Assembly: GCF_002208115.1 (NCBI RefSeq)
Contig: NZ_CP020946.1
Location: 558,001 to 622,000 of the forward strand
Source: Bdellovibrio bacteriovorus
Lineage (GTDB): Bacteria > Bdellovibrionota > Bdellovibrionia > Bdellovibrionales > Bdellovibrionaceae
Reading direction: 5' to 3'
DNA length: 64,000 bases
Shown here: positions 2,942-60,938 of the stretch, in pieces
How the letters are laid out: each line of letters begins with the position of its first letter
How positions within the stretch are numbered: position 1 is the stretch's first letter
Program-made: the position numbers and the translations under genes
Notes under the pieces: model-generated
The model's database searches: none
Seen by the model: only the letters and a program-made list of their open reading frames with translations
Told to the model about the DNA's origin: nothing

Positions 2942-3610
2942 ATGCGTTGGTTGCTTTCTTTGATCTTTGTAGTTTCAGTTTCTGCTCACGCGGAAGAGGC
3001 GTCGACGCCAACAGCGGCGGCGTCAGAATCCCAGGAGCTTTCTGCGGCGGCAACAGCAGAGCCAAAGGATGTCACTAAAAATGACAACCGCAAAGAGTCC
3101 GAGATTCTTCTGAATCTGGAGTCCAACAAGAAAGCGGCCTCTGAGGGCGGTGGCGTCTTCCGTATTCTTTTCACCCTGTCCATGCTGGGTGTGGTGGGTA
3201 CGGGCGCGTACTTCTTCCTTAGAAAATACAAGATTCCCAAAGCGATGAAACATCAGACGCAGATCAAGGTTTTGCAGCAGCACTACCTGGGTCCGAAGAA
3301 AAGTCTGGCGATCGTGCGTGTGGCGGGTGAATCCATCCTGATCGGCGTGACGGATCATAACATCTCCATGATCAAGTCCCTGTCCCTTCTGGATGACGAA
3401 GTGCCTGAAGAAGCACCGCAAAGCTTTGGCAAAGTTCTGGGTCAGTCTGCAGCCGCAGACGTGGACTTTACAGACACGGCAGACACAGAAGAAACTCCCG
3501 CTCCGCGCAAGCGCAGCGCCAAGGATCTGGATCTGGACGAAGAATTTGCGATCAGTGGAATCAAGGATATCGTTTCCAAACGTCTTAAAGGCATGAGGTC
3601 TTTTCAGTGA
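2942..3610 (+). CDS. fliO: Flagellar export protein FliO
   Basis: FliO is a bitopic membrane protein that helps assemble the FliP ring of the export gate. It has a signal-like N-terminus (MRWLLSLIFVVSVSAHA), an acidic periplasmic stretch, a membrane helix at about 72-93, and a cytoplasmic FliO domain (about 105-155) with a charged tail. Of two in-frame ATGs I prefer 2942, which is 7 nt after GAGG; the ATG at 2936 is only 1 nt after it. FliO diverges strongly between species, so position between fliN and fliP carries much of the assignment. The end overlaps the GTG start of fliP by 4 nt. Confidence 0.85.
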   Translation: MRWLLSLIFVVSVSAHAEEASTPTAAASESQELSAAATAEPKDVTKNDNRKESEILLNLESNKKAASEGGGVFRILFTLSMLGVVGTGAYFFLRKYKIPKAMKHQTQIKVLQQHYLGPKKSLAIVRVAGESILIGVTDHNISMIKSLSLLDDEVPEEAPQSFGKVLGQSAAADVDFTDTADTEETPAPRKRSAKDLDLDEEFAISGIKDIVSKRLKGMRSFQ

Positions 3611-10924: not shown

Positions 10925-10968
10925 AGGGCATGGACCTGTTTGATAACATAGACTTCAAGAGGGAAAAT

Positions 10969-11754
10969 ATGGGGAAAAACGCGGCATTGTTGAAGAAGTA
11001 CAAGGAAGAGCCACGCAAGCTCGCTCCGACGCAAAAAGATGACCTAATCAGAGAATATGCTCCGCTAATTAAGTTCATCGCTCAGAAGATCGCGGTACGA
11101 CTTCCCTCCAATATCGAGCTGGATGACCTTATTTCCGCAGGTGTCATCGGTTTGATGGATGCGATTGAAAAGTACGACTCCACTCGTGACAATAAGTTCA
11201 AAACCTATGCAGAATTCCGCATCCGTGGAGCGATCCTGGATGAACTTCGTGCCCAGGACTGGGTTCCCCGCTCTATCCGTGACAAAGCCAAGCTTCTTGA
11301 TAAGACCATGGTGCAATTGGAAGCTGATCTGGGTCGTACTCCCTCCGACGAAGAAGTGGCCAAGGCATTGAATGTAAATATTGATGAATTCCATGATCTG
11401 GTGAATCAGGTTCGCCCGGTCAGCTTGTTGCCGATCGATCAGGCGACAAGCTTCAGCAATACCGACAAGAAGTCCATTATGGATATTCTTGAAGGTTCTC
11501 GCACCAACAGCCCTTTCAATCAGTTGAATGTCAAAAACATCAAGGAAGTTGTGGCTCAGGCAATTGAAGAACTGCCAGAGCGTCAGCGTCTGGTTCTGTC
11601 TTTGTATTATTACGAAGACCTGAACCTGAAAGAGATCGGTCAGGTTCTGCGCGTGACCGAGTCCCGCGTGTCCCAGCTTCACGCTCAAGCGGTCGCCCGC
11701 CTGCGTGCCAAACTGGCAGCAACCATCGGTGCCGGCGAACTCGAAATCGCTTAA
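10969..11754 (+). CDS. fliA: Flagellar sigma factor FliA (sigma-28)
   Basis: The sigma-28 factor for late flagellar and chemotaxis genes. The product is 261 aa with regions 2 (LIKFIAQKIAVRLPSNIELDD... DLISAGVIGLMDAIEKYD), 3 and 4 (LPERQRLVLSLYYYEDLNLKEIGQVL). I prefer the ATG at 10969, which has AAGAGGG 6 nt upstream. An ATG at 10930 would add 13 residues but has GGG only 1 nt from it. It is the last gene of the export operon and ends at a strong terminator. Several genes in this window carry FliA-type -10 boxes and are candidate targets. Confidence 0.93.
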   Translation: MGKNAALLKKYKEEPRKLAPTQKDDLIREYAPLIKFIAQKIAVRLPSNIELDDLISAGVIGLMDAIEKYDSTRDNKFKTYAEFRIRGAILDELRAQDWVPRSIRDKAKLLDKTMVQLEADLGRTPSDEEVAKALNVNIDEFHDLVNQVRPVSLLPIDQATSFSNTDKKSIMDILEGSRTNSPFNQLNVKNIKEVVAQAIEELPERQRLVLSLYYYEDLNLKEIGQVLRVTESRVSQLHAQAVARLRAKLAATIGAGELEIA

Positions 11755-34416: not shown

Positions 34417-35340
34417 TTAAACCTTTCTGCCAAAGCTCAGGGCGCGCATCGAGATGCTTCCCATGTCAAAGCCTTCAAGCTCAAACTTCAGGTTGTCTTT
34501 TTCATCGGCGGCACCCAGCACATACAGCAAAGGCAGATAGTGATCCGGCGTCGGCACACTCAGTTGTCCTGCTAAAGTTTTCGCATAGTCATCCCCGACC
34601 GCTTTGAAATCGCGATCGATCAGACGTGCCTTCACCCATTCATCAAATTCTTCGGCCCAGTCAAAACCCTTGCGCGGCTGATTCCAGTCCATGCGACGAA
34701 GATTGTGAACAATGTTGCCGCTCCCCAGAATCAACACACCCTGTTCACGCAGCTGGCCCAGGGTTTTACCCAGCTCCAGATGGAAACTTGCGGGTTCGGA
34801 CATGTCGATGGACAGTTGCACCACCGGCACGTCGGCCTCGGGATACATCTTTGCCAGCACGGACCATGTTCCATGATCCAGGCCCCAGGATTTATCATCG
34901 GCTTGAATTTTTGGATTCTTGGAAAGGCGGCGAAGCTCTGCTGCCAGTTCCGGATTTCCCGGAGCCGGGTACTGCATGTCGTGCAGGGCTTGAGGGAAGC
35001 CATAGAAGTCGTGAATCGTGCGCGGTCTTTCCATTTGGGTGACCCAAGTGCCGGCGCTCAGCCAGTGAGCGGACACACAAAGAATCGCTTTGGGTTTTCC
35101 GATCTCTTGGCCCAGCTCCAGCCAGCGCTGACCGTATTGATTGTCTTCGATGGCGTTCATAGGGCTGCCGTGACCGATAAACAGAGCGGGCATTTTTGCA
35201 GAGTCATTTTTGCGGGAGGGGTCGAAAATCATAAGCAGCTCCTTGGCCGAGGTCAGCTGACTAAGCCCGGCGACAGCAGCAAGGCTGCCGGCACCGAAAA
35301 GCAAAGATCTGCGACTGAAAGGCCGGGAAGGAAGTTTCAT
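34417..35340 (-). CDS. DODA-type extradiol dioxygenase with Tat signal
   Basis: A 307-aa member of the class III extradiol (4,5-DOPA dioxygenase/YgiD) family. Metal ligands are expected in FIGHGSPMNA, CVSAHWLS and LGSGNIVHNL; SWGLDHGTWSVL is also typical. Unlike E. coli YgiD (about 260 aa, cytosolic), it begins with a twin-arginine signal: FSRRSLLFGAGSLAAVAG. So export of a folded metalloenzyme to the periplasm is predicted. The esterase gene follows 3 nt later. Confidence 0.85.
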   Translation of the reverse strand: MKLPSRPFSRRSLLFGAGSLAAVAGLSQLTSAKELLMIFDPSRKNDSAKMPALFIGHGSPMNAIEDNQYGQRWLELGQEIGKPKAILCVSAHWLSAGTWVTQMERPRTIHDFYGFPQALHDMQYPAPGNPELAAELRRLSKNPKIQADDKSWGLDHGTWSVLAKMYPEADVPVVQLSIDMSEPASFHLELGKTLGQLREQGVLILGSGNIVHNLRRMDWNQPRKGFDWAEEFDEWVKARLIDRDFKAVGDDYAKTLAGQLSVPTPDHYLPLLYVLGAADEKDNLKFELEGFDMGSISMRALSFGRKV

Positions 35341-35415
35341 GCTTTAATTATCGGTGGTTTTTGACTGTTTCGCCAGAATACATAATTGCAAATCAGTGTT
35401 GCAACAGTAGAACAA

Positions 35416-50078: not shown

Positions 50079-50974
50079 GACTGAACCCAGTATCCGACCC
50101 ATTCGTCTTTTTCAATTCGACGAACCACGGTCAGGCCGGAGTTTTCCATGAACTTTTCAAAGAAGTGATTGTCACGCTCTTCCAGAATCCCGGTCAGCAA
50201 CATGTGGCCGCCTGGTTTCAGGACACGCAGCAGATCTTTTTTGATGTTGATCAGAACGCCATCAATGATGTTGGCAACAACCACGTCATACTGATCGCGG
50301 ATGTCTTCGATTTGTGTTTCTGGAATTTCAATTTGTGGCAGCTTGTTCAGCTTCACATTTTCACGCGCCACACGGCGCGCTTCCGGATCGATCTCGATAC
50401 CGGCCACCAGTCCCATACCGGACATCTGCGCCAGCATTGCAAGAATCGCGGTGCCCGTGCCCACGTCCAGCATCGCCCAGTTAGCCAGATCATTTTTGTA
50501 TTTTTCAGAAAGCTTGTGGATGAAGAACGCCATCATCTGAGTGGTGGCGTGAGTACCGGTTCCGAAAGCCATGCCCGGATCAATGTAAATCGGGTGCTTG
50601 CATTCTTCAGGGGGAGTCAGCCAGGATGGAACAACCCAGAAGTCACCCACCAGTTTGAACGGCTTGAAACCTTTTTTCCATTCTTCCAGCCAGTCTTTGG
50701 TTTCTTCTTCATGGATATTCCAGCGGATGCCGTCGTTGAGATCGGTCAGGCCGTCAAAGAAGGTGTTGTCTGGTTTTTCAGTGAAGAACACGTCCATTTC
50801 GTGGGCGCGCACATGAAGAATTTTGGGATCGTAAGTCAGATCAGGCTGTGAAAACGGCAAAGCCTCGGTGACGCCGGAGGCGCCACATTCAAAGCAGTGG
50901 GTTGTGATGATATCTTCAAGTTCAGCAGGAACCTGGCTTAGGCGGATACGGAAGTAGGAATTTGTGTCACTCAT
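50075..50974 (-). CDS. prmA: Ribosomal protein L11 methyltransferase
   Basis: PrmA (299 aa) trimethylates ribosomal protein L11. Substrate domain at about 1-110, then a Rossmann domain with PGMAFGTGTHATT, motif I LDVGTGTAILAMLA and the VVANIIDGVLI motif. Start MSDTNSYFRIRL at 50974, which overlaps the end of the upstream secreted-protein gene by 8 nt. It overlaps rsmE by 4 nt. The pair prmA-rsmE is common in many bacteria. Confidence 0.93.
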   Translation of the reverse strand: MSDTNSYFRIRLSQVPAELEDIITTHCFECGASGVTEALPFSQPDLTYDPKILHVRAHEMDVFFTEKPDNTFFDGLTDLNDGIRWNIHEEETKDWLEEWKKGFKPFKLVGDFWVVPSWLTPPEECKHPIYIDPGMAFGTGTHATTQMMAFFIHKLSEKYKNDLANWAMLDVGTGTAILAMLAQMSGMGLVAGIEIDPEARRVARENVKLNKLPQIEIPETQIEDIRDQYDVVVANIIDGVLINIKKDLLRVLKPGGHMLLTGILEERDNHFFEKFMENSGLTVVRRIEKDEWVGYWVQS

Positions 50975-51605
50975 TCCGAGTGGTGTTATCAGAAACCACC
51001 GAATTATCAAGTCTTTCCGCTGTTGGGGCCGGGGTCAAAGCCAGGGCCGCCGGAGCTGTATTTGCCGCAGGAACCACCGGGGAGGGGTTTGCAGAAACTA
51101 CAGGGTTTTGGGCGGTCAAAGCGGGGGGAGTGACCGTGGTCACGGCCGTTACCACAACCTCGGTGGCAGGGGTCATTTCGGCCTCCGCGACCTTCTTTTT
51201 GGCTTTGGGTTTGGAGTTATCGATAAAGGACCCACCCAGGTCAATGCGGTCGCCGGTCATGATGCCGATTTGCTCCAGCATTGGCAGCTCATCACGGGAA
51301 AGCAGGGTGAATTCGCGGGCCACCGCCACACGGTCGTAAATGGCGATGATTTTCAACTGCCCCACCGGAACCAGGATTTCACCAACGGCATTGGCACCAC
51401 TGGCATCGCGGATGTTGATCTTGCGAACGGCGGTGACCACCAGATTCTTTTTTAGTCCGGAGCCGGGGCCGGCGTTGATGTAGAAGTCTTTGTAGACGGT
51501 GTCGGTTTCAGACAGCGTGATATTGCGGCGGACGTCCACCACGGACATATCTGCGGCGTGGGATGAATTCGATAATCCAAGCATGAGCGCAATCAGTAGC
51601 ATCAT
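50967..51605 (-). CDS. Unknown secreted protein with FliA-type promoter
   Basis: A 212-aa exported protein. Signal peptide MMLLIALMLGLSNSSHA, a folded beta-rich region to about 130 (VVDVRRNITLSETDTVYKDFYINAG, LKIIAIYDRVAVAREFTLLS), then a Lys segment and a Pro/Ala/Val/Thr-rich tail (about 150-205). The first part is reminiscent of FlgT-like periplasmic flagellar proteins, but I cannot confirm that. The ATG at 51605 has GGAAGGG 6 nt upstream, better than the ATG at 51620. A strong FliA-type promoter lies 31-58 nt upstream. Confidence 0.7.
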   Translation of the reverse strand: MMLLIALMLGLSNSSHAADMSVVDVRRNITLSETDTVYKDFYINAGPGSGLKKNLVVTAVRKINIRDASGANAVGEILVPVGQLKIIAIYDRVAVAREFTLLSRDELPMLEQIGIMTGDRIDLGGSFIDNSKPKAKKKVAEAEMTPATEVVVTAVTTVTPPALTAQNPVVSANPSPVVPAANTAPAALALTPAPTAERLDNSVVSDNTTRNE

Positions 51606-51635
51606 AAGAAACCCTTCCATGGTTCACTGAATCCC

Positions 51636-51663
51636 TTATCGGCTGTCTTATTTTGAAACTTAA
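51636..51663 (-). promoter_or_regulatory. Strong candidate sigma-28 promoter
   Basis: On the minus strand TTAAGTTT (51663-51656), a 12-nt spacer, then GCCGATAA (51643-51636). The -10 is a perfect match to the FliA consensus, and the -35 matches 7 of 8. Predicted RNA start near 51628. Confidence 0.75.
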
Positions 51664-51690
51664 ATCCACTGGACCAAAGAAGTGCCTGAA

Positions 51691-51720
51691 GCAAAAAGCC
51701 CCTTGGGTTGCAAGGGGCTT
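51691..51720 (-). terminator. Rho-independent terminator of lipoprotein gene
   Basis: AAGCCCCTTG (51696-51705) and CAAGGGGCTT (51711-51720) form a perfect 10-bp stem with a 5-nt loop. On the minus strand TTTTT follows. Confidence 0.9.
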
Positions 51721-51749
51721 CAAAGTTAAAGCGAATGTGGGGGCCGAGG

Positions 51750-52040
51750 TTAGTTGGAAACGATGGCGCCCTGAACCGAGCTGTACACCTTGTAGGTGTC
51801 ATCAGCAGTTTTTTGTTCAATACCGGACATGTAGTTACCCACCGTGCTTTGCACGTGATAGGTCACGCCACCACCTGTGGCCGTACCGGTCTGAGTAGAG
51901 CCCGACACCAAACCTGTGGTCTTTGCCGGATCCTGGAATTTGACAGGAGGAGGAGTCAGCTCAGCAATCTGCTCCAGAGATGCTTCCATAGAACATCCCG
52001 TGGCGAGTATTAGTAGTGAAGCTATAACGAACCTTTTCAC
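51750..52040 (-). CDS. Small lipoprotein next to tail-fibre genes
   Basis: A 96-aa lipoprotein (VKRFVIASLLILATGCSMEAS, lipobox ATGC). The mature part is Thr/Gly/Gln-rich with beta character (TGTATGGGVTYHVQSTVGNYMSGIEQ). No family recognised. The GTG at 52040 has GAGG about 6 nt upstream. A GCCGATAA box that includes the stop of the giant gene lies 22 nt before it. It may serve as an outer-membrane partner of the tail-fibre-like proteins (inference from position and shared box). Confidence 0.65.
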   Translation of the reverse strand: MKRFVIASLLILATGCSMEASLEQIAELTPPPVKFQDPAKTTGLVSGSTQTGTATGGGVTYHVQSTVGNYMSGIEQKTADDTYKVYSSVQGAIVSN

Positions 52041-52062
52041 GCAATACCTCAGTGTTACTGTC

Positions 52063-52070
52063 TTATCGGC
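52063..52070 (-). promoter_or_regulatory. FliA-type -10 box overlapping stop codon
   Basis: GCCGATAA on the minus strand. The TAA is the stop codon of the 1383-aa gene. It lies 22 nt before the small lipoprotein start and is followed by GACAG as at the promoter of the giant gene. The -35 match is weak (TCAACGTC, 4 of 8). Confidence 0.5.
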
Positions 52071-55000
52071 TGGAAGCCGGCAGACGTTGAGTGTTCTCAT
52101 TTTGAGACTTGATATATTTCATTAGATCTTCATTCTGTTTGAGCAGAAGCTCATTTTGTTTTTGTAAGGCGGTCATCTGTGTCTCCAGGGCGGAAATGCG
52201 CTCGTCATGATTGGTGAGGATCGCTTTGAATTTGTGGTAAAGCTCCTGCACCGCACTGGTGATCGGTGCAATCATGTTCATGTAAGAAACGGCCTTGATG
52301 CCTTTTTTGTTTTCATCCACCACGTGTGGATAAACTTTTTCAAGTTCTTGCGCGATGAAACCCATCTGCAGACGTGGATCGGCATTCGGGTCTTTCCAGT
52401 GATAGGACGACGGCTTCAGTTGTAGGATCTTGTCCAGGCTGCCATTTAGAACGTGGATGTCTTTTTTCAGGCGAATATCCGAAGCACCGTTCACAGTTCC
52501 AGTGGTGGTCAGATTTCCAACTGCAGACAGGGTCATCTTTGTGCCGGTGACGCCGCCGGTTTTCGTGGCAAAGTTGATATCCCCACCGTCCATTTCATTG
52601 GCAATGTGAAGTGCGGTGCTACCACCGGTAGGTACTCCCACATAGGCAGAGCGTGTATTCGGAGACGCGGTTCTGGCAAAGAACTGCATGTACACGTGAT
52701 CTCCGCTGCCGGGCTTAAGGCTCAATATCCCCATGCCGTTTGAACCGGTTTCACCCAAAGTCAGAAGTCCACTGGCATCCAAAGACATCAGCATTTGACC
52801 AGACCCAAGGTTTCCTTTGTAGAAATTCAGACGACGGCTGGAACCATATTCATTCACGATGTGGAAATTGTGGGTGGTTGTGGCGTCATTACCCATCTGG
52901 AAAGACGAGTACGCCGTGTTGCCAGCGCCCGAGCTTCCGATGTGTATGTTGGCCAGTGGACTTGTGGCAGTGTTAAATCCGGTAGCGCCGGCGAAGTAGT
53001 TTTTGGCTCCGGTATTCTGTTGATAGATCCCGTAGCGATTGGTGACAGTTCCGCCGGTGCTTGGATTCTGCAGGAACAGGTCATACATGTTTGTGACCGT
53101 ACCGGACTGTAAATGAGGCACGATACGGATACCATAGGCATCTGTGGTTGTCGGAGCATTGCCCGCGACATAGTTTTCATGCCCATAGACGAATTGTCCG
53201 GAAGCCAGGTATGAGACTGTTCCGGCATCCACGTTCCCGGCATAGCGGTTGCGTGTGGCATTGGAGTGGAAGGCTTCGTTTTGGCTTGTTACAGTCACGC
53301 CGGAAGGCACATTGGGAACAACGATACTGACCAGAGCATGTGTCGACATCGTGGAATTGGCTGCAGGACTGAAGCGTTGATAAGCACCGGCAGCCACATA
53401 GTTACCAGTTGTTTCCGTATGGTTGCGCAAGGTCGCATTCAAAGTTTCAGTTGTGATAATGCTGAAATTCGCCGGGAACGGAGTGATATCCCCAATCACC
53501 GCGCCGCCCTTGACCTGGAAATTCGTTGCCGGGGCATTGGTGTTGATACCGACTTTACCGTCGGCTTTGATGGTCATCCATTTGTTCACACCCATCATGT
53601 CGGTGAAATGCAGGTCCGCCGAAGTGGTGTTGGTGAAATCAGTACCAGATTCGATATAGTTGGCACCACTTTGGGAAAGGATGCGCATGGTGACCGGAGT
53701 GCCGGACTTGTCCTGAATGCGCAGGTCCACCGCCCCTGTGTTTGAAAGATGCAGGTTCCCTGTCGGAGCCGTTTCGTTCACGCCGACTTTACCCGTGGCA
53801 AGAATGGTCATGCGGGGATTGGCGTCTGTTTCAAAGGTCAAAGACTGGGCGTCGTTGGTGCCCAGAACTGCCGCAGCACCAAAGCTGTTGCCGCCATTAG
53901 CAAAAATCCCCGAGGAAGAATAACTCGTACAGCCCATCACGCCTGAGGCGTTGAAGGTCAGCATCTGTGCGGTGCCGCAGGTAAATGGAATCACCGCAGA
54001 ACCTGTGCCATTGGAAACAAGCAGACGGTCGGCCGTCAAAGACGTCGCGCCTGTACCCCCTTTGGATACCGGTACCGCAGACGGGAAGTTCGCCGGATCC
54101 GCACTGATGGTGCCTGAGGAAACCGCGATACCCGAGCCCACCTGAACCACACCGCGAGCTCCTGTTGTCGCAGCATCAACGGAAATCACTGGTGTTGAAG
54201 TGCCCGTTGCCACCTGAACCGGCGCTGTACCAGAAACACTGGTCACAGTTCCCGCGTTGGGAGTCGCCCATTTTACACCCGCAGTAACAGCACTGTCGGC
54301 AGTCAGCACCTGACCGTTCGTTCCCACTGGCAGACGGATGTTGTTGGTGGCATCACGAACCAGAACATCCCCTTTGGTTGTCAGAGGAGAAAGTGCGTTG
54401 AATGCCCCCAAAGCGGTTGTTGCGCCCGTTCCTCCGTTTGCGATCGGCAAAGTGCCAGTCACATCAGAAGCCAGATTGATCGCCGCCCCACTGGACGCCG
54501 CCGTCAAACGACCTTGAGCATCCACTGTGATGGATGCGCGAGTGTAAGAACCCGCTGTCACTGTCGTGTTGGCCAACGCAATCGTTCCGGTCGAGGTGAT
54601 CGGGCCACCTGTCAAACCAGTGCCCGTTGCGATATTGGTGACGGTGCCGCCGGAAGAAGTGTCAGTATCAGTACCGCACTCCCAACGATTGTTCGCGGAC
54701 ACCCATTTTAAAACCTGACCGTCAGTACAAGCCGTGTTGTTTGGACGATAAGTCAAATATTTACCAGCGCCACTGCCGATGTCAGCAGCATCCAAAGTAA
54801 TCGCACCCGTGCGACCCGCAACCGTCGTCACCGGGAAAGCAATGGCGGCATTACTTGCCGCCGTCAAACGCCCTTGGGCATCGACGGTGAAGGTTCCAAC
54901 TTGAGTGCTGGAACCATAAGATGCGGCCGTCACCGCTGTATTAGCCAGCGAGATTGTGCCAGTTGAAGTGATCGGTCCGCCGGAAAGTCCCGTGCCGGTT

Positions 55001-56214
55001 GCGATGTTGGTCACAGTTCCGCCGGAATTGGCGTCATTATCTGCGGCGGGTGCGAACTTGGTGCCGTCGTACTTCAGCACCTGACCTGCGGCCAACCCCG
55101 TCGTGTCGACAGTGATGCCCTTGATTTTGTTAACAGCCACGGCACCAATGGTGCCACTGACGTCCCCCGCAACAGACACGTTGATAGACTGACAGTTAAA
55201 GCCAGACACCGCATTCCAATACATGGTTTGGTGGGCCGCACAGTTTGCATTGGCCACCGCCGTATTGAAGTCGGCCTGGGCCATATAGTTGTTCAATGTG
55301 GCCGTCAGTCCATTCACATCACCGGTGCTGATCTGAGCAGACAGCCATTGGGTGCCGTTGAATTTCAAAAAGTGCCCGTTCGTTGGAGCTGTGGCGGACA
55401 CCGCCACGCCCTGGATTTTTGCAACAGAAGGATTCGGATAGGTGCCGCCCAGGTCGCCAGCGGCCGCGCCCGTCGGAACACGGGCATCACTAAAGCGGGC
55501 ATCATTTCCGGCGGCAACCTGATTGGCATTCTGACCGACATTCAAGGTCAGTTGCGGAGTGGTTGTGCCGTTGGTCACAGTGATATAAGCGTTGGCGGAG
55601 GTCACATCAGACACCGTCCCGCCATTGGCACCGGAAACACCAGCACAGCTTAAAGCGGTGCCATTCCAACTTAAGAACGTACCGGCGGCGCAAGTCGGCA
55701 AACCGGCTTTTTGCAGGAAGTCCTCTTCAGTTTTGGTGCCGAGCTTTTCTGATGACAGGGCATAGGCTGCGTAAGGAACCGTACGAATTTCATTGGACGG
55801 GGAGATGATCTTCCAGCCCGAGCCATCATGGAATTGCACTTTCAGCAAGCGGGTGTCCCCGGCCTGCGCGGGATAGGTGGAACCACCAAAGCAGTTGTGA
55901 GTTTTTGAGTTGTTAAATGCCTCAAGCAATGTGAACAGGGGATCTGCCGGGAAAAGTTTTGTCCCGGAACCGATCGGCACGTCAAACACGCCGCCAGAGT
56001 TAATCATGTTCACGCCATCTTTTTGCTCGCGATAGATAACACAACTGCCGTTAGGATTGGTGATCTCAAACAGGAAACTGACGTTGTTATAATCAAGCCC
56101 GTGTCCGTCAGCTTTAAGAATACGCCCCTGATAGGTCAGTGAATTGGGGGAGGCCAGTGCAATCACACTGGTGAACATTGAGAGAATAATGAGCAAATAC
56201 GTTCCGTTTCTCAT
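52063..56214 (-). CDS. Giant secreted tail-fibre-like protein with S74 chaperone domain
   Basis: 1383 aa. Signal peptide MRNGTYLLIILSMFTSVIALA, then a conserved N-terminal domain (about 22-180: SLTYQGRIL, VSFLFEITNP, DVPIGSGTKLFP), a long beta-rich shaft of Gly/Thr/Asn repeats (about 190-1000), and a C-terminal S74 intramolecular chaperone (from about 1243: SDIRLKKDI, S1245) with a terminal coiled coil (about 1330-1375). In phage endosialidases S74 trimerises the fibre then cuts itself off before the Ser. It probably forms a trimeric surface fibre or adhesin. GCCGATAA ends 7 nt before the ATG; no ribosome site is seen. Confidence 0.85.
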   Translation of the reverse strand: MRNGTYLLIILSMFTSVIALASPNSLTYQGRILKADGHGLDYNNVSFLFEITNPNGSCVIYREQKDGVNMINSGGVFDVPIGSGTKLFPADPLFTLLEAFNNSKTHNCFGGSTYPAQAGDTRLLKVQFHDGSGWKIISPSNEIRTVPYAAYALSSEKLGTKTEEDFLQKAGLPTCAAGTFLSWNGTALSCAGVSGANGGTVSDVTSANAYITVTNGTTTPQLTLNVGQNANQVAAGNDARFSDARVPTGAAAGDLGGTYPNPSVAKIQGVAVSATAPTNGHFLKFNGTQWLSAQISTGDVNGLTATLNNYMAQADFNTAVANANCAAHQTMYWNAVSGFNCQSINVSVAGDVSGTIGAVAVNKIKGITVDTTGLAAGQVLKYDGTKFAPAADNDANSGGTVTNIATGTGLSGGPITSTGTISLANTAVTAASYGSSTQVGTFTVDAQGRLTAASNAAIAFPVTTVAGRTGAITLDAADIGSGAGKYLTYRPNNTACTDGQVLKWVSANNRWECGTDTDTSSGGTVTNIATGTGLTGGPITSTGTIALANTTVTAGSYTRASITVDAQGRLTAASSGAAINLASDVTGTLPIANGGTGATTALGAFNALSPLTTKGDVLVRDATNNIRLPVGTNGQVLTADSAVTAGVKWATPNAGTVTSVSGTAPVQVATGTSTPVISVDAATTGARGVVQVGSGIAVSSGTISADPANFPSAVPVSKGGTGATSLTADRLLVSNGTGSAVIPFTCGTAQMLTFNASGVMGCTSYSSSGIFANGGNSFGAAAVLGTNDAQSLTFETDANPRMTILATGKVGVNETAPTGNLHLSNTGAVDLRIQDKSGTPVTMRILSQSGANYIESGTDFTNTTSADLHFTDMMGVNKWMTIKADGKVGINTNAPATNFQVKGGAVIGDITPFPANFSIITTETLNATLRNHTETTGNYVAAGAYQRFSPAANSTMSTHALVSIVVPNVPSGVTVTSQNEAFHSNATRNRYAGNVDAGTVSYLASGQFVYGHENYVAGNAPTTTDAYGIRIVPHLQSGTVTNMYDLFLQNPSTGGTVTNRYGIYQQNTGAKNYFAGATGFNTATSPLANIHIGSSGAGNTAYSSFQMGNDATTTHNFHIVNEYGSSRRLNFYKGNLGSGQMLMSLDASGLLTLGETGSNGMGILSLKPGSGDHVYMQFFARTASPNTRSAYVGVPTGGSTALHIANEMDGGDINFATKTGGVTGTKMTLSAVGNLTTTGTVNGASDIRLKKDIHVLNGSLDKILQLKPSSYHWKDPNADPRLQMGFIAQELEKVYPHVVDENKKGIKAVSYMNMIAPITSAVQELYHKFKAILTNHDERISALETQMTALQKQNELLLKQNEDLMKYIKSQNENTQRLPASSR
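54638..55009 (-). repeat. 372-nt shaft module in giant gene
   Basis: A coding module of 124 codons running from the VTNIATGTGLSGG segment to the next TDTSSGG. The paralogous gene has equivalent modules at 59039-59410 and upstream. Boundaries are approximate; the period is measured between matching positions (372 nt). Confidence 0.7.
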
Positions 56215-56221
56215 GTCTGTC

Positions 56222-56229
56222 TTATCGGC
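56222..56229 (-). promoter_or_regulatory. FliA-type -10 box of giant gene (leaderless mRNA predicted)
   Basis: GCCGATAA on the minus strand, separated from the ATG by 7 nt (GACAGAC). For FliA promoters the RNA start is about 7 nt after this box, so the mRNA would begin at or next to the ATG. The -35 is weak (CACGATTT, 4 of 8). The same CTGTTAAxAAGCCGATAAGA segment precedes the paralogue. Confidence 0.6.
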
Positions 56230-56250
56230 TTTTTAACAGAAAATCGTGAG

Positions 56251-56278
56251 AAAAATCCCTGAGCTTTTTCAGGGATTT
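56251..56278 (-). terminator. Rho-independent terminator of split tail-fibre gene
   Basis: AAATCCCTGA (56253-56262) and TCAGGGATTT (56269-56278) form a perfect 10-bp stem. On the minus strand TTTTT follows. It separates the second giant locus from the first. Confidence 0.9.
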
Positions 56279-56286
56279 AATCACAT

Positions 56287-59200
56287 TTATTTCTTTTTGA
56301 TACAGACCTTGGACTTTGGATTGACCTCGCAAATGGCTTCACGAAGCTCCTGATTCTCTTGTTTTAAAGAGGCGATTTCGCGCTTCTGTGCCTGAACTTC
56401 GGCCTTAACGCCGGACAGGGACGCGTAAAGCTCTTTGAAGGCTTCAATCATCGGGCCGATCAATTTGGTATAGGCCACGGCACGGAAGCCCTTCTCATCT
56501 TTGTCAACGGCTTCAGGGAACACTCGTTCGACGTCCTGGGCGATCACACCCATGTCTTTTTTCTCAATAAGATCCAGATCCGGTCTGACATCATGACGCC
56601 AGTTGAAGGTCACACCACGAAGGGAAAGAATTTTCTGCAACGAATCCGGAACAACCTGGATGTCGGTTTTCAAGCGGGCATCGGACAAGTTTTCCCACGC
56701 AGCCGTACCACCGGAGGTACCGTTGACAAAGAATTTACGAGAACCTGTGTTACCACCGATATAGACGTTGCCACCACTGGTGACAGTTAATGCGTCACTG
56801 GAAGCCGTGGTTGGTCCGGGACGAATCCAGAAGTTACCGCCATCAAGCCCCATGAAGAATTTTCCGGAGGTGTCCATTTCATCAAAACCAATGTAAGGAG
56901 CCGTGGCACTTCTCAGATTCAGCGGCGCACCCGGAGTCGACGTGCCGACCCCCATGGTGATCCAGCCGGTGCTGTGAATGCGCATGCGTTCAGTCGGCAC
57001 TGTGACGCTTCCAGTCCCAGTGTGGGTGGAAAATGTCATATCCGCGGGAACGGAGGTCGATGTCCAGGTCGCAGAAGCGACACTTTGGATATGTGAACCC
57101 AGGCCCACAGTTGTGGCGTCACCATAACCATTGAACAGAAGGCTGCCTAATGTGTCACCGGATTGAACGGCGGCTTTGGCGCCCGTAGTTCCGCGGGACT
57201 TCATCAGTTGAATCCCCGGGCCTGCACTTGCTTCTTCGTTGCGTTCAAAAGCGGCAGATGAGTTGGTGTAGTTGTTGCCCTGAACATGAAGTCTGACCGT
57301 GGGTGCTGTCGCACCGATACCAACAGCCCCAGAGCTGGTGATGCGCATTCTTTCGCCGGATGATCCGTTGTTCAAAGTCGCAAAGGACATATAGGCAGAC
57401 TTGGCTGTGGCAAAGTCGGCTTCTGCGACACCCGCGATCGAAGCACCACTCTGATAAGCCGTACCGTCATAACCACGCATGGACAGGAAGCCCAGGGAAT
57501 CACCAGCCAGAACGGCAGCCTCAGCGCCCGAGTTGGAGCGGGCCTTCGTCAGGATGTAAGCCGGTTCACCGGTGTTACCGATGCTTTGGACATAGACGTC
57601 ATCATTGCCGCCGCCAGTGCCTTTAACATGGATGATTCTTTCCGGGGCAAGGGCGGTGCCAAGGCCTAAACCACCTGGAACATACAGCTTCAGATCCTGA
57701 GTCGCACGCCAGTCACCTTGAGCATTGGCATTTCCGATGCCCACTGTGCTGTTCGCCGGATTAGCTACCGGGCCAATACCCCAGTAACCTGCGCTGTTCC
57801 AGTTCCCGACAAACTGCGCTTGTCCGTTGGTGTTGTGATAAGAGCCGACGAAGACGGCGTTGTAGTTGGCCGTGGCATTCCATTCACCCACTTGGAAGCG
57901 GGCGCCGGGGCTTTCAGCATCAATGCCGACTCGGCCATCGTTGGTGATTCTCATTTTTTCAACATTGTTCGTATCAAAGATGATGTGAGCATCACTGCCA
58001 TTGGAAATATAAAGATCCGAAGTCGCGGTATTAGCATAACCAAAAGTACCCAGCCAGGTTCCATTGCGCAGGAAATCCATTTCAACTTTGCCGGCAGCTG
58101 GTGAATTCAGGATGAGCGCAGACTTGGTTGTTGACGGCGCCATCACGGCCAGACCCGCATTGGTGTCTGGAGACTGACCAATACCAACATAGCCGGCATT
58201 AGAGATCGTCATGCGAGTGACGTTGTTGGTTTCAAGCGCCAAAGAATAAGCGTCATTAGTACCCAAAGTCGCATTCGAAGCCAGAGTGTTACCACCGTTG
58301 GCAAAGAAGGATGTCGAAGCAAAGTTTGTACAACCCATCACACCCGACGCATTGAAGGTCAGCATCTGAGCGGTACCGCACGTAAATGGAATCACCGCAG
58401 AGCCGGTGCCGTTAGAAACCAACAGACGGTCGGCAGTCAGTGAAGTCGCACCCGTACCACCCTTGGAAACAGGAACAGCAGAAGGGAAGTTCGCCGGATC
58501 CGCACTGATTGTGCCTGAAGAAACCGCGATACCAGAACCGACTTGAACAACCCCGCGCGCACCCGTTGTTGCCGGATCTACAGAGATAACGGGAGTCGTA
58601 GTACCCGTAGCAACTTGAACCGGAGCTGTACCCGTGACACTCGTCACAGTACCCACAGTCGGAGTCGCCCATTTCAAACCAGAAGCTTGAGCAGAATCCG
58701 CAGTCAGAACCTGACCGTTCGTTCCCGCAGGCAGGCGAACGTCGTTCGTGCCATCGTTACCGAGAACATCCCCTTTAGTCGTTAACGGGGAAAGACCGTT
58801 GAAGGCGGCAATCGCTGTCGTAGCGCCGGTACCACCATTTGCAATTGGCAAAGTGCCGGTCACATCCGAAGCCAGATTGATTGCCGCGCCACTGGACGCC
58901 GCCGTCAAACGACCTTGAGCATCCACCGTGATCGAAGCGCGAGTGTAAGAACCCGCAGTCACCGCGGTGTTGGCCAAAGCAATCGTGCCTGTCGAAGTGA
59001 TCGGACCGCCGGCAAGACCTGTGCCCGTTGCGATATTCGTGACAGTACCACCGGAAGAAGTGTCAGTATCTGTCCCGCACTCCCAACGATTGTTCGCCGT
59101 CACCCATTTTAGAACCTGACCGTCGGTACACGCTGTGTTGTTCGGACGATAGACAAAGTACTTGCCAGCGCCGTTGCCAACATCACCCACATCCAAAGTC

Positions 59201-59769
59201 ACAGCACCTGTTCTGCCTGCAACCGTAGTCACAGGGAAGGCGATGTTAGCGTTGGAGGCCGCGGTCAAACGACCTTGAGCATCGACGGTGAAAGTGCCCA
59301 CTTGAGTCGTGGAGCCATAAGAAGCCGCAGTGACAGCTGTGTTCGCCAAAGAAATGGTGCCCGTGGAAGTGATCGGGCCACCGGAAAGACCCGTTCCTGT
59401 GGCGATGTTGGTGACAGTACCACCGGAAGATGTGTCAGTGTCATTCGCACACTCCCAGCGGGAGTTGGCATTGATCCATTTCAAAACCTGACCGTCGGTA
59501 CAAGCCGTGTTGTTTGGACGATACGTCAGATATTTACCGGCACCGCTTGTGATGTCGCCGGCATCCAAAACGACCGCGCCCGTTCTGCCTGCAACCGTAG
59601 TTACAGGAAACGCGATAGCGGCATTCGAGGCCGCGGTCAGACGCCCTTGAGCATCGACGGTGAAAGTGCCCACTGAAGTAGTGGAGCCATAAGCTGCCGG
59701 AGTTACCGCTGTGTTCGCCAAAGAAATAGTTCCGGTGGAAGTGATCGGACCACCAGACAAACCGGTCAC
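56287..59769 (-). CDS. C-terminal part of split tail-fibre-like protein
   Basis: 1160 aa from a GTG that overlaps the stop of the upstream part (GTGA). It lacks a signal peptide and starts in the shaft (TGLSGGPITSTG). It contains three shaft modules of about 124 aa (one more than the intact paralogue), the shared segment SGIAVSSGTISADPANFP, a variable region, and a C-terminal S74 domain (SDARLKTDI, S1029) with a coiled coil and two Cys near the end. Translation could be by coupling at GTGA, but the product would not be exported on its own. I regard it as the 3' part of a gene disrupted by a 61-nt deletion. Confidence 0.8.
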   Translation of the reverse strand: MTGLSGGPITSTGTISLANTAVTPAAYGSTTSVGTFTVDAQGRLTAASNAAIAFPVTTVAGRTGAVVLDAGDITSGAGKYLTYRPNNTACTDGQVLKWINANSRWECANDTDTSSGGTVTNIATGTGLSGGPITSTGTISLANTAVTAASYGSTTQVGTFTVDAQGRLTAASNANIAFPVTTVAGRTGAVTLDVGDVGNGAGKYFVYRPNNTACTDGQVLKWVTANNRWECGTDTDTSSGGTVTNIATGTGLAGGPITSTGTIALANTAVTAGSYTRASITVDAQGRLTAASSGAAINLASDVTGTLPIANGGTGATTAIAAFNGLSPLTTKGDVLGNDGTNDVRLPAGTNGQVLTADSAQASGLKWATPTVGTVTSVTGTAPVQVATGTTTPVISVDPATTGARGVVQVGSGIAVSSGTISADPANFPSAVPVSKGGTGATSLTADRLLVSNGTGSAVIPFTCGTAQMLTFNASGVMGCTNFASTSFFANGGNTLASNATLGTNDAYSLALETNNVTRMTISNAGYVGIGQSPDTNAGLAVMAPSTTKSALILNSPAAGKVEMDFLRNGTWLGTFGYANTATSDLYISNGSDAHIIFDTNNVEKMRITNDGRVGIDAESPGARFQVGEWNATANYNAVFVGSYHNTNGQAQFVGNWNSAGYWGIGPVANPANSTVGIGNANAQGDWRATQDLKLYVPGGLGLGTALAPERIIHVKGTGGGNDDVYVQSIGNTGEPAYILTKARSNSGAEAAVLAGDSLGFLSMRGYDGTAYQSGASIAGVAEADFATAKSAYMSFATLNNGSSGERMRITSSGAVGIGATAPTVRLHVQGNNYTNSSAAFERNEEASAGPGIQLMKSRGTTGAKAAVQSGDTLGSLLFNGYGDATTVGLGSHIQSVASATWTSTSVPADMTFSTHTGTGSVTVPTERMRIHSTGWITMGVGTSTPGAPLNLRSATAPYIGFDEMDTSGKFFMGLDGGNFWIRPGPTTASSDALTVTSGGNVYIGGNTGSRKFFVNGTSGGTAAWENLSDARLKTDIQVVPDSLQKILSLRGVTFNWRHDVRPDLDLIEKKDMGVIAQDVERVFPEAVDKDEKGFRAVAYTKLIGPMIEAFKELYASLSGVKAEVQAQKREIASLKQENQELREAICEVNPKSKVCIKKK
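59039..59410 (-). repeat. 372-nt shaft module in split gene
   Basis: One exact-length module: GTGACAGTACCACCGGAAGA occurs at 59039 and again, with one changed codon, at 59411. A second copy continues to the split point near 59768. Encodes about 124 residues from VTNIATGTGL to TDTSSGG. Confidence 0.75.
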
Positions 59770-60923
59770 TTGGTGCCGTCGTACTTCAAAACCTGACCAG
59801 CAACCAGACCCGTGGTATCAACAGTCACACCTTTGATTTTATTAACTGAAGAAGCACCGATGGTTCCACCGACGTCACCGGCCAAAGAAACATTGATGGC
59901 CTGACAGGAAAAGCCGGCCACCGCGTTCCAGTACATCGTTTCGTGCGCCGCACAGCCGGCATTGGCCACGGCCGTGCTGAACTCCGCATCTGTCATATAA
60001 GAATTTAATGTCGCCGACAGACCCGAGACATCGCTTTGTGCAATCGCCGAAGGTGTCCACGCCGTGCCATTGAATTTCAGGAAGTTGCCATTGGCCGGAG
60101 CCGCATTGGAAACAGCCGTGCCCTGAAGTTTTGCCACAGACGGATTGGGATAAGTGCCGTCCAGATCTCCAGCCGCAGCACCTGTTGGTGTACGAGCATC
60201 AGAGAAACGGGCATCATTACCTGCCGCCACTGTACCTGCCGCCGTGCCCACATTCAGGGTCAGTGCCGGGGTGGAGGTGCCGTTGGCAATCGTAATGTAA
60301 GAATTTGTGGAAGTGACATCAGTCACCGTACCGCCGTTGGCACCGCTGATTCCGGCACACGTCATCGTCGTGCCGTTCCAGGTCAGATAAGTGCCAGCTC
60401 CGCACGTTGGCAGGCCGGCTTTAGCCAGGAAGTCAGTTTCGGTTTTGGTGCCCAGGCGTTCTGCAGAATAGGAATAAGCAGAATAAGGAACCGAACGAAT
60501 TTCATTCGCCGGAGAAATCACTTTCCAGCCGGAACCGTCATGGAATTGCACTTTCAACAAACGGGCATCACCGGCCACCGCGCTGTAGGTGGCTCCGCCG
60601 GAACAATCGTGAGAGCGGGAGTTGTTGAAAGAATCAATCAACGTATAAAGAGGATCCGTCGGGAACATCTTGGTGCCGGAACCAATCGGCACATCAAACA
60701 CACCGCCCGAGTTCTGAAGATTCACACCGTTTTTCTGTTCGCGATAAAGCACGCAGGTGCCTGAAGGGTTTGTGATTTCAAAAAGGAAGCTGACGTTGTT
60801 GTACTCAAGCCCTTTGCCGTCAGAGTTTACGATACGTCCTTGATATGTCAGAGAATTTGGAGCAGCCAAGGCCACTCCACTCCAGAATGCGAGAATCAAA
60901 GCAAGATACGTTCCGTTTCTCAT
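59766..60923 (-). CDS. N-terminal part of split tail-fibre-like protein
   Basis: 385 aa with signal peptide MRNGTYLALILAFWSGVALA and the same N-terminal domain as the 1383-aa paralogue (SLTYQGRIV, VSFLFEITNP, DVPIGSGTKMFP), ending at GQVLKYDGTK then TGA. In the paralogue the same point continues FAPAADNDAN. Alone it would be a secreted fragment without shaft or S74 domain. GCCGATAA ends 7 nt before its ATG. Frameshift restoration would need 61 nt more, so the locus is either a broken gene or a coupled two-part gene. Confidence 0.8.
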   Translation of the reverse strand: MRNGTYLALILAFWSGVALAAPNSLTYQGRIVNSDGKGLEYNNVSFLFEITNPSGTCVLYREQKNGVNLQNSGGVFDVPIGSGTKMFPTDPLYTLIDSFNNSRSHDCSGGATYSAVAGDARLLKVQFHDGSGWKVISPANEIRSVPYSAYSYSAERLGTKTETDFLAKAGLPTCGAGTYLTWNGTTMTCAGISGANGGTVTDVTSTNSYITIANGTSTPALTLNVGTAAGTVAAGNDARFSDARTPTGAAAGDLDGTYPNPSVAKLQGTAVSNAAPANGNFLKFNGTAWTPSAIAQSDVSGLSATLNSYMTDAEFSTAVANAGCAAHETMYWNAVAGFSCQAINVSLAGDVGGTIGASSVNKIKGVTVDTTGLVAGQVLKYDGTK

Positions 60924-60930
60924 GCTTTTC

Positions 60931-60938
60931 TTATCGGC
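60931..60938 (-). promoter_or_regulatory. FliA-type -10 box of split gene (leaderless mRNA predicted)
   Basis: GCCGATAA on the minus strand with a 7-nt gap (GAAAAGC) to the ATG, as at the paralogue. The upstream CTGTTAAGAA is shared with the paralogue (CTGTTAAAAA). No good -35 of the TAAAGTTT type. Confidence 0.55.

Follow-up and report, generated by a model that had tools for sequence, protein, structure and literature searches.

Two giant fibre genes of Bdellovibrio appear to be transcribed from FliA (sigma-28) promoters that put the first transcribed base on the A of the ATG, so that their mRNAs would be leaderless and translated without a Shine-Dalgarno (SD) sequence, a reading to which we assign a probability of about 0.8. 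Both genes belong to the MAT fibre superfamily and lie in the window analysed here, a stretch of 64,000 nucleotides at positions 558001-622000 of its own genome, which is a single contig of 3,769,537 bases (Table 1). In the proposed mechanism, FliA would bind the boxes before both fibre genes, the RNA would begin at the A of the AUG, and the messages would be translated as leaderless mRNAs in the attack phase; the same arrangement would recur in most core MAT genes and in other, mostly exported, Bdellovibrio proteins. Since the FliA box abuts the ATG, a single element would thus set both attack-phase expression and the translation start.

Table 1. Promoter boxes and genes in the window (window coordinates)
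Feature	Position	Strand	Details
FliA-type -10 octamer GCCGATAA, upper fibre gene	60931..60938	-	predicted +1 at 60923 (A of ATG); 7-nt spacing kept in G001 and G006
FliA-type -10 octamer GCCGATAA, lower fibre gene	56222..56229	-	predicted +1 at 56214 (A of ATG)
GCCGATAA, candidate promoter of small lipoprotein gene	52063..52070	-	overlaps stop codon of lower fibre gene; conserved in G001 and G006
GCCGATAA with consensus -35 TTAAG (51659-51663)	51636..51643	-	gene with leader, SD GGAAGG; conserved
ACCGATAA, 7 nt before ATG 35340	35348..35355	-	ORF 34417..35340, Tat-type signal
fliA gene (sigma-28)	10930..11754	+	TIGR02479, 280.5 bits against a cut-off of 189.6, match at 11044-11715
Upper MAT fibre gene, 5' part, 385 aa	59766..60923	-	signal peptide, MAT N-terminal domain (profile match)
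Upper MAT fibre gene, 3' part, other frame, 1160 aa	56287..59769	-	C-terminal S74 intramolecular chaperone domain, PF13884 E=4e-17
Lower MAT fibre gene, 1383 aa	52063..56214	-	signal peptide; C-terminal S74 chaperone domain, PF13884 E=6e-17
Small lipoprotein gene, 96 aa	51750..52040	-	GTG start, lipobox-like LATGC
Secreted protein gene, with leader	50967..51620	-	lies behind the 51636 box; ATG 51605 is the probable start

The octamer GCCGATAA occurs seven times in the window against an expectation of 1.36 (about 1.4), a count reached in none of 100 shuffles. As the first-pass annotation had claimed, four of the seven stand before four consecutive minus-strand genes, with exact matches at 51636, 52063, 56222 and 60931, and the order of all four is kept in the relatives G001 and G006. 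These boxes carry CCGATA, the -10 element of Bdellovibrio FliA promoters. The -35 element that had been called good at 51636 proves to be a perfect match to the published Bdellovibrio pattern (TTAAG-N16-CCGATA); at the other three boxes the TTAAG position reads TCAAC, TCACG and CTTTC, the last two belonging to the fibre promoters, both of which have a poor -35. The product of the fliA gene in the window is the factor expected to read the boxes.

Before both fibre genes, GCCGATAA is followed by exactly seven bases and then the ATG, and no SD precedes either ATG, which bears out the original description of the 56222 and 60931 boxes. An in-frame TAA lies just upstream of each ATG with no start codon in between, which leaves these ATGs as the sole possible upstream starts, and by inspection the fibre ATG opens a signal peptide (MRNGTY...ALA). 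An AUG start and the absence of an SD, two features expected of a leaderless mRNA, are thus both present. Both products have the MAT N-terminal domain after the signal peptide and the S74 chaperone (PF13884) at the C terminus, and the lower gene has orthologues in G001 and G006. The genes behind the 51636 and 52063 boxes have SD-type leaders, GGAAGG and GAGG (the latter before GTG), so only two of the four boxed genes are candidates for leaderless messages; neither the small lipoprotein gene nor the secreted protein gene has a match in Pfam. A third leaderless candidate in the window is the ORF behind the 35348 box, whose G001 counterpart (L145) has GCCGATAA in place of ACCGATAA.

The distance between box and ATG is far from random. 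In the whole genome, GCCGATAA followed by k bases and an ATG is found 4, 2, 2, 2, 3, 7, 1, 14, 2, 3, 1 and 4 times for k = 0 to 11; the 14 matches at k = 7 stand against a mean of 2.5 at other spacings up to 30 (P about 5e-7), and a pyrimidine directly precedes the ATG at 12 of these 14 sites vs 39 of 76 at the other spacings. Across 24 Bdellovibrio genomes, where orthologue counts are mutually dependent, k = 7 has 202 matches vs 51 for k = 6, 108 for k = 8 and a mean of 57 per other spacing, and the reversed pattern gives 17 at k = 7. GTG at the 7-nt spacing (77 matches) is not above background. Outside the genus, hand-summed exact matches in the rest of the family amount to about 150 at k = 7 vs 138 at k = 8, with no clear excess. 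Stretches totalling 864 kb of the same genome (the window and L090-L129), picked without regard to the motif, provided an unbiased sample, in which CCGATAA with at most one mismatch has 12 ATGs at 7 nt and no more than 5 at any other spacing. The sigma-70-like TANNNT also rises before ATGs in these 864 kb, with 33 at 6 nt and 30 at 7 nt vs roughly 17 elsewhere, so that Bdellovibrio probably has an ordinary, sigma-70-type class of leaderless genes as well.

The 14 sites at k = 7 comprise four MAT genes, nine unrelated genes, among them a TPR protein, a lipoprotein-like protein and several exported proteins, and one spurious site at genome position 2463513 (L038), which falls within a longer open frame and was rejected as a real start. 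The k = 7 orthologues found in G001 and G006 can be aligned from their first residue onward. In HD100 coordinates the counterparts of the two fibre starts are 3181757 and 3186533 (+), and the A of the ATG of other k = 7 genes stands at 628731 (+), 794200 (+), 1261889 (-), 1650017 (-) and 2015676 (-). Many of the k = 7 genes have pyrimidines as both the sixth and the seventh base after the box (gttccct, gtttccc, gtccgtc), and the first purine to follow is the A of the ATG. Scaling from the exact sites and the sample, we estimate very roughly 20-40 candidate leaderless FliA-box genes per genome.

The same register is found throughout the fibre family. A MAT profile built from the N-terminal region of four members from this genome matches 17 genes in G000, 21 in G001, 16 in G006 and 6 in G007, including both window genes; the 21 in G001 correspond to the 13 + 8 MAT proteins published in PMC10769870. 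When 42 distinct MAT upstream regions from these four strains, which include orthologues and hence are not independent, are anchored on the conserved LTYQG-type motif, CCG stands at -14 to -12 in 38 of 42 and CCGA in 36 of 42, and base -1 is C in 28, T in 14 and a purine in none. A weak TTAAG-like element lies at -35 to -31, where 41 of 42 regions have T or C at -35 and positions -33 and -32 are rich in A; with +1 assigned to the A of the ATG, the -35 and -10 elements therefore fall at their canonical positions. Some MAT boxes are degenerate (CCGACAA, CCGAAAA, CCGATAT) yet occupy the same place. The exceptions are two members with the box one nucleotide closer, two with no matching box (L204, L205), and distant MATs that are not of the S74 type and lack the LTYQG-type motif, which have a spacing of 9 or an SD. 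The leaderless spacing is thereby supported, from sequence, as a property of the fibre superfamily and of other genes, beyond the two with which the first-pass annotation had dealt. In a Bdellovibrio sp. MAG (L086, near position 911), the longest frame of a fibre gene begins 11 codons earlier than a second ATG that opens the signal peptide, and TCCGATAA seems to lie 7 nt before this second ATG.

Mapped RNA ends of other transcripts provide a calibration. FliA-type SD-led genes could have served to check the start point, but only three were clean, too few for the purpose, and we used instead the mapped starts of three small RNAs with FliA promoters in B. bacteriovorus HD100 (PMC3627812). The HD100 starts were read off G001, whose coordinates fit, with the merRNA c-di-GMP riboswitch at its PMC3627812 position. 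APsRNA6 (GCCGAAAA gttatac, +1 G) and APsRNA7 (TCCGTAAA agaaagg, +1 G) both have seven bases from box to start, and APsRNA3 starts 11 bases after its box; two of the three FliA-type small RNAs, which are transcripts other than the fibre messages, thus match the fibre-gene spacing. Taken with the position of the box and the spacing statistics, these starts point to a transcription start at or near the fibre ATG. A separate case is APsRNA5 (G001 605400-605720, L227; counterpart L049 in the genome analysed here), which is not marked as FliA-dependent in PMC3627812, although a perfect GCCGATAA precedes its listed start by 23 nt; its 5' region also has AAAGGAG before an ATG, and it may start further upstream, or may be an mRNA leader.

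How exactly the start coincides with the A is the point on which the nearest alternative turns. In the sigma-28-dependent E. coli aer gene, RNA starts 6 bp after the octamer, the equivalent here of a leader of about 2 nt, still without an SD, and a spacing of 6 in two MAT genes or of 9 in a few genes could likewise be read as FliA promoters that start 1-2 nt upstream of the ATG, leaving a minimal leader functionally nearly equal to none. We think this unlikely, given that the two bases before the ATG are both pyrimidines in many k = 7 genes, that base -1 is a pyrimidine in all 42 MAT upstream regions, and that APsRNA6 and APsRNA7 start at the eighth nucleotide after the box. Judged by the small RNA and aer starts, the A is the most probable +1 and a position 1-2 nt upstream comes next, and neither would leave space for an SD.

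The weak -35 elements of both fibre genes, and the mismatch between the perfect box of APsRNA5 and its listed start, would be more comfortable for a model in which the box is a FliA promoter or a relic of one, and the fibre mRNAs, made from a promoter further upstream, have a long leader and dispense with an SD for other reasons. Such a model fails to explain why the 7-nt register is kept in unrelated genes, in orthologues and in MAT paralogues that are otherwise diverged, and we consider it quite improbable. Nor do we give any real weight to chance, or to the idea that the promoters are alike only through duplication from a common ancestor and say nothing about where transcription begins: the promoters of the two fibre genes are indeed similar paralogues, and orthologue counts are not independent, but nine unrelated genes of the same genome have the 7-nt spacing and the peak is also present in the unbiased sample, which already contradicts this explanation. 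The leaderless reading, that the sigma-28 start is the ATG, as the first-pass annotation had predicted, is supported by the spacing peak, the MAT register, the pyrimidine at -1 with A at +1, the preference for AUG and not GUG, and the HD100 starts.

One part of the original description needs correction. Of the two giant genes it named, the lower is indeed a single frame, whereas the upper is only a 385-aa frame in this assembly, a break that had been missed. In relatives the upper fibre gene is a single frame of 1567 or 1535 aa, and its 5' part here shares 95% identity with residues 1-386 of the 1567-aa G001 orthologue; an alignment shows that 61 bases near 59765 are missing vs G001 and G006, which shifts the frame. 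A paralogue at genome position 2718550 (L231, 2716500-2724500, positions 3137-3430), about 97% identical around the break, has two exact 77-base tandem duplications flanking the corresponding stretch. Two paralogous fibre genes are therefore frame-broken at the same place, one by a loss of 61 nt and the other by two 77-nt duplications, and no other exact 77-base tandem duplication is present in 864 kb of the genome. Duplications of 77 bases are what would be expected from untrimmed 77-mer contig overlaps at one shared repeat contig, and we therefore infer that the 61-nt gap is probably an assembly error and that the upper fibre gene is probably whole. With the gap and the 77-base duplications in view, a real pseudogene or a phase switch was judged less likely than an assembly error. 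Annotating the two paralogues as truncated genes is consequently doubtful.

If the leaderless reading is true, an alternative, flagellar sigma factor drives a family of leaderless mRNAs, and the encoded fibres are proteins thought to grip prey in a predatory bacterium. Start codons in Bdellovibrio genomes could be corrected by the 7-nt spacing rule, and genetic tools in which such promoters are given a ribosome-binding site would lose the native context. The translation of adhesins in non-growing attack-phase cells would also become directly testable with existing HD100 5'-end data. A bolder extension, which we hold tentatively and regard as probably too strong, is that the arrangement is a regulon-wide device by which, in attack-phase cells that are not growing, leaderless mRNAs for prey-handling surface proteins preferentially use a distinct mode of initiation (e.g. 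intact 70S ribosomes); the same genes would then be under both a sigma switch and a translation switch.

Much of the setting is already published, namely that FliA controls the attack phase and that MAT fibres are displayed on the surface, and the leaderless coupling is what we did not find in the literature searched. FliA-type promoters make up two thirds of attack-phase promoters in HD100 (Karunker 2013, PMC3627812), and the boxes described here resemble that regulon in their -10 CCGATA, in the same -35 and spacing at 51636, in their surface-protein targets and in the predicted attack-phase expression; the main text of that report, unlike the present reading, includes neither leaderless messages nor a fixed distance to the start codon. 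MAT fibres are carried on the surface of attack-phase cells, with a trimeric fibre published for sampled members (Caulton 2024, PMC10769870), and the earlier suggestion of attack-phase surface fibres agrees with both papers. The window genes share the N-terminal domain, mosaic body and S74 chaperone of that superfamily, whose description does not treat promoters or translation starts. Leaderless genes occur in many bacteria (PMC3160421, PMC5243855), and none in Bdellovibrio, nor a leaderless class tied to sigma-28, is reported in the literature searched, which omits most subscription journals. The closest known parallel is the class in which TANNNT precedes the start codon by about 6-7 nt, known in Mycobacterium, Deinococcus, Streptomyces and Leptospira (Zheng 2011, PMC3160421), from a survey that scores sigma-70-like signals and whose main text is silent on sigma28 and other alternative sigma factors. 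Like that class, the Bdellovibrio genes have a -10 element at a fixed distance from the start codon and no SD; unlike it, they carry the -10 element of a flagellar, alternative sigma factor, and this element marks out adhesins of one coordinated family.
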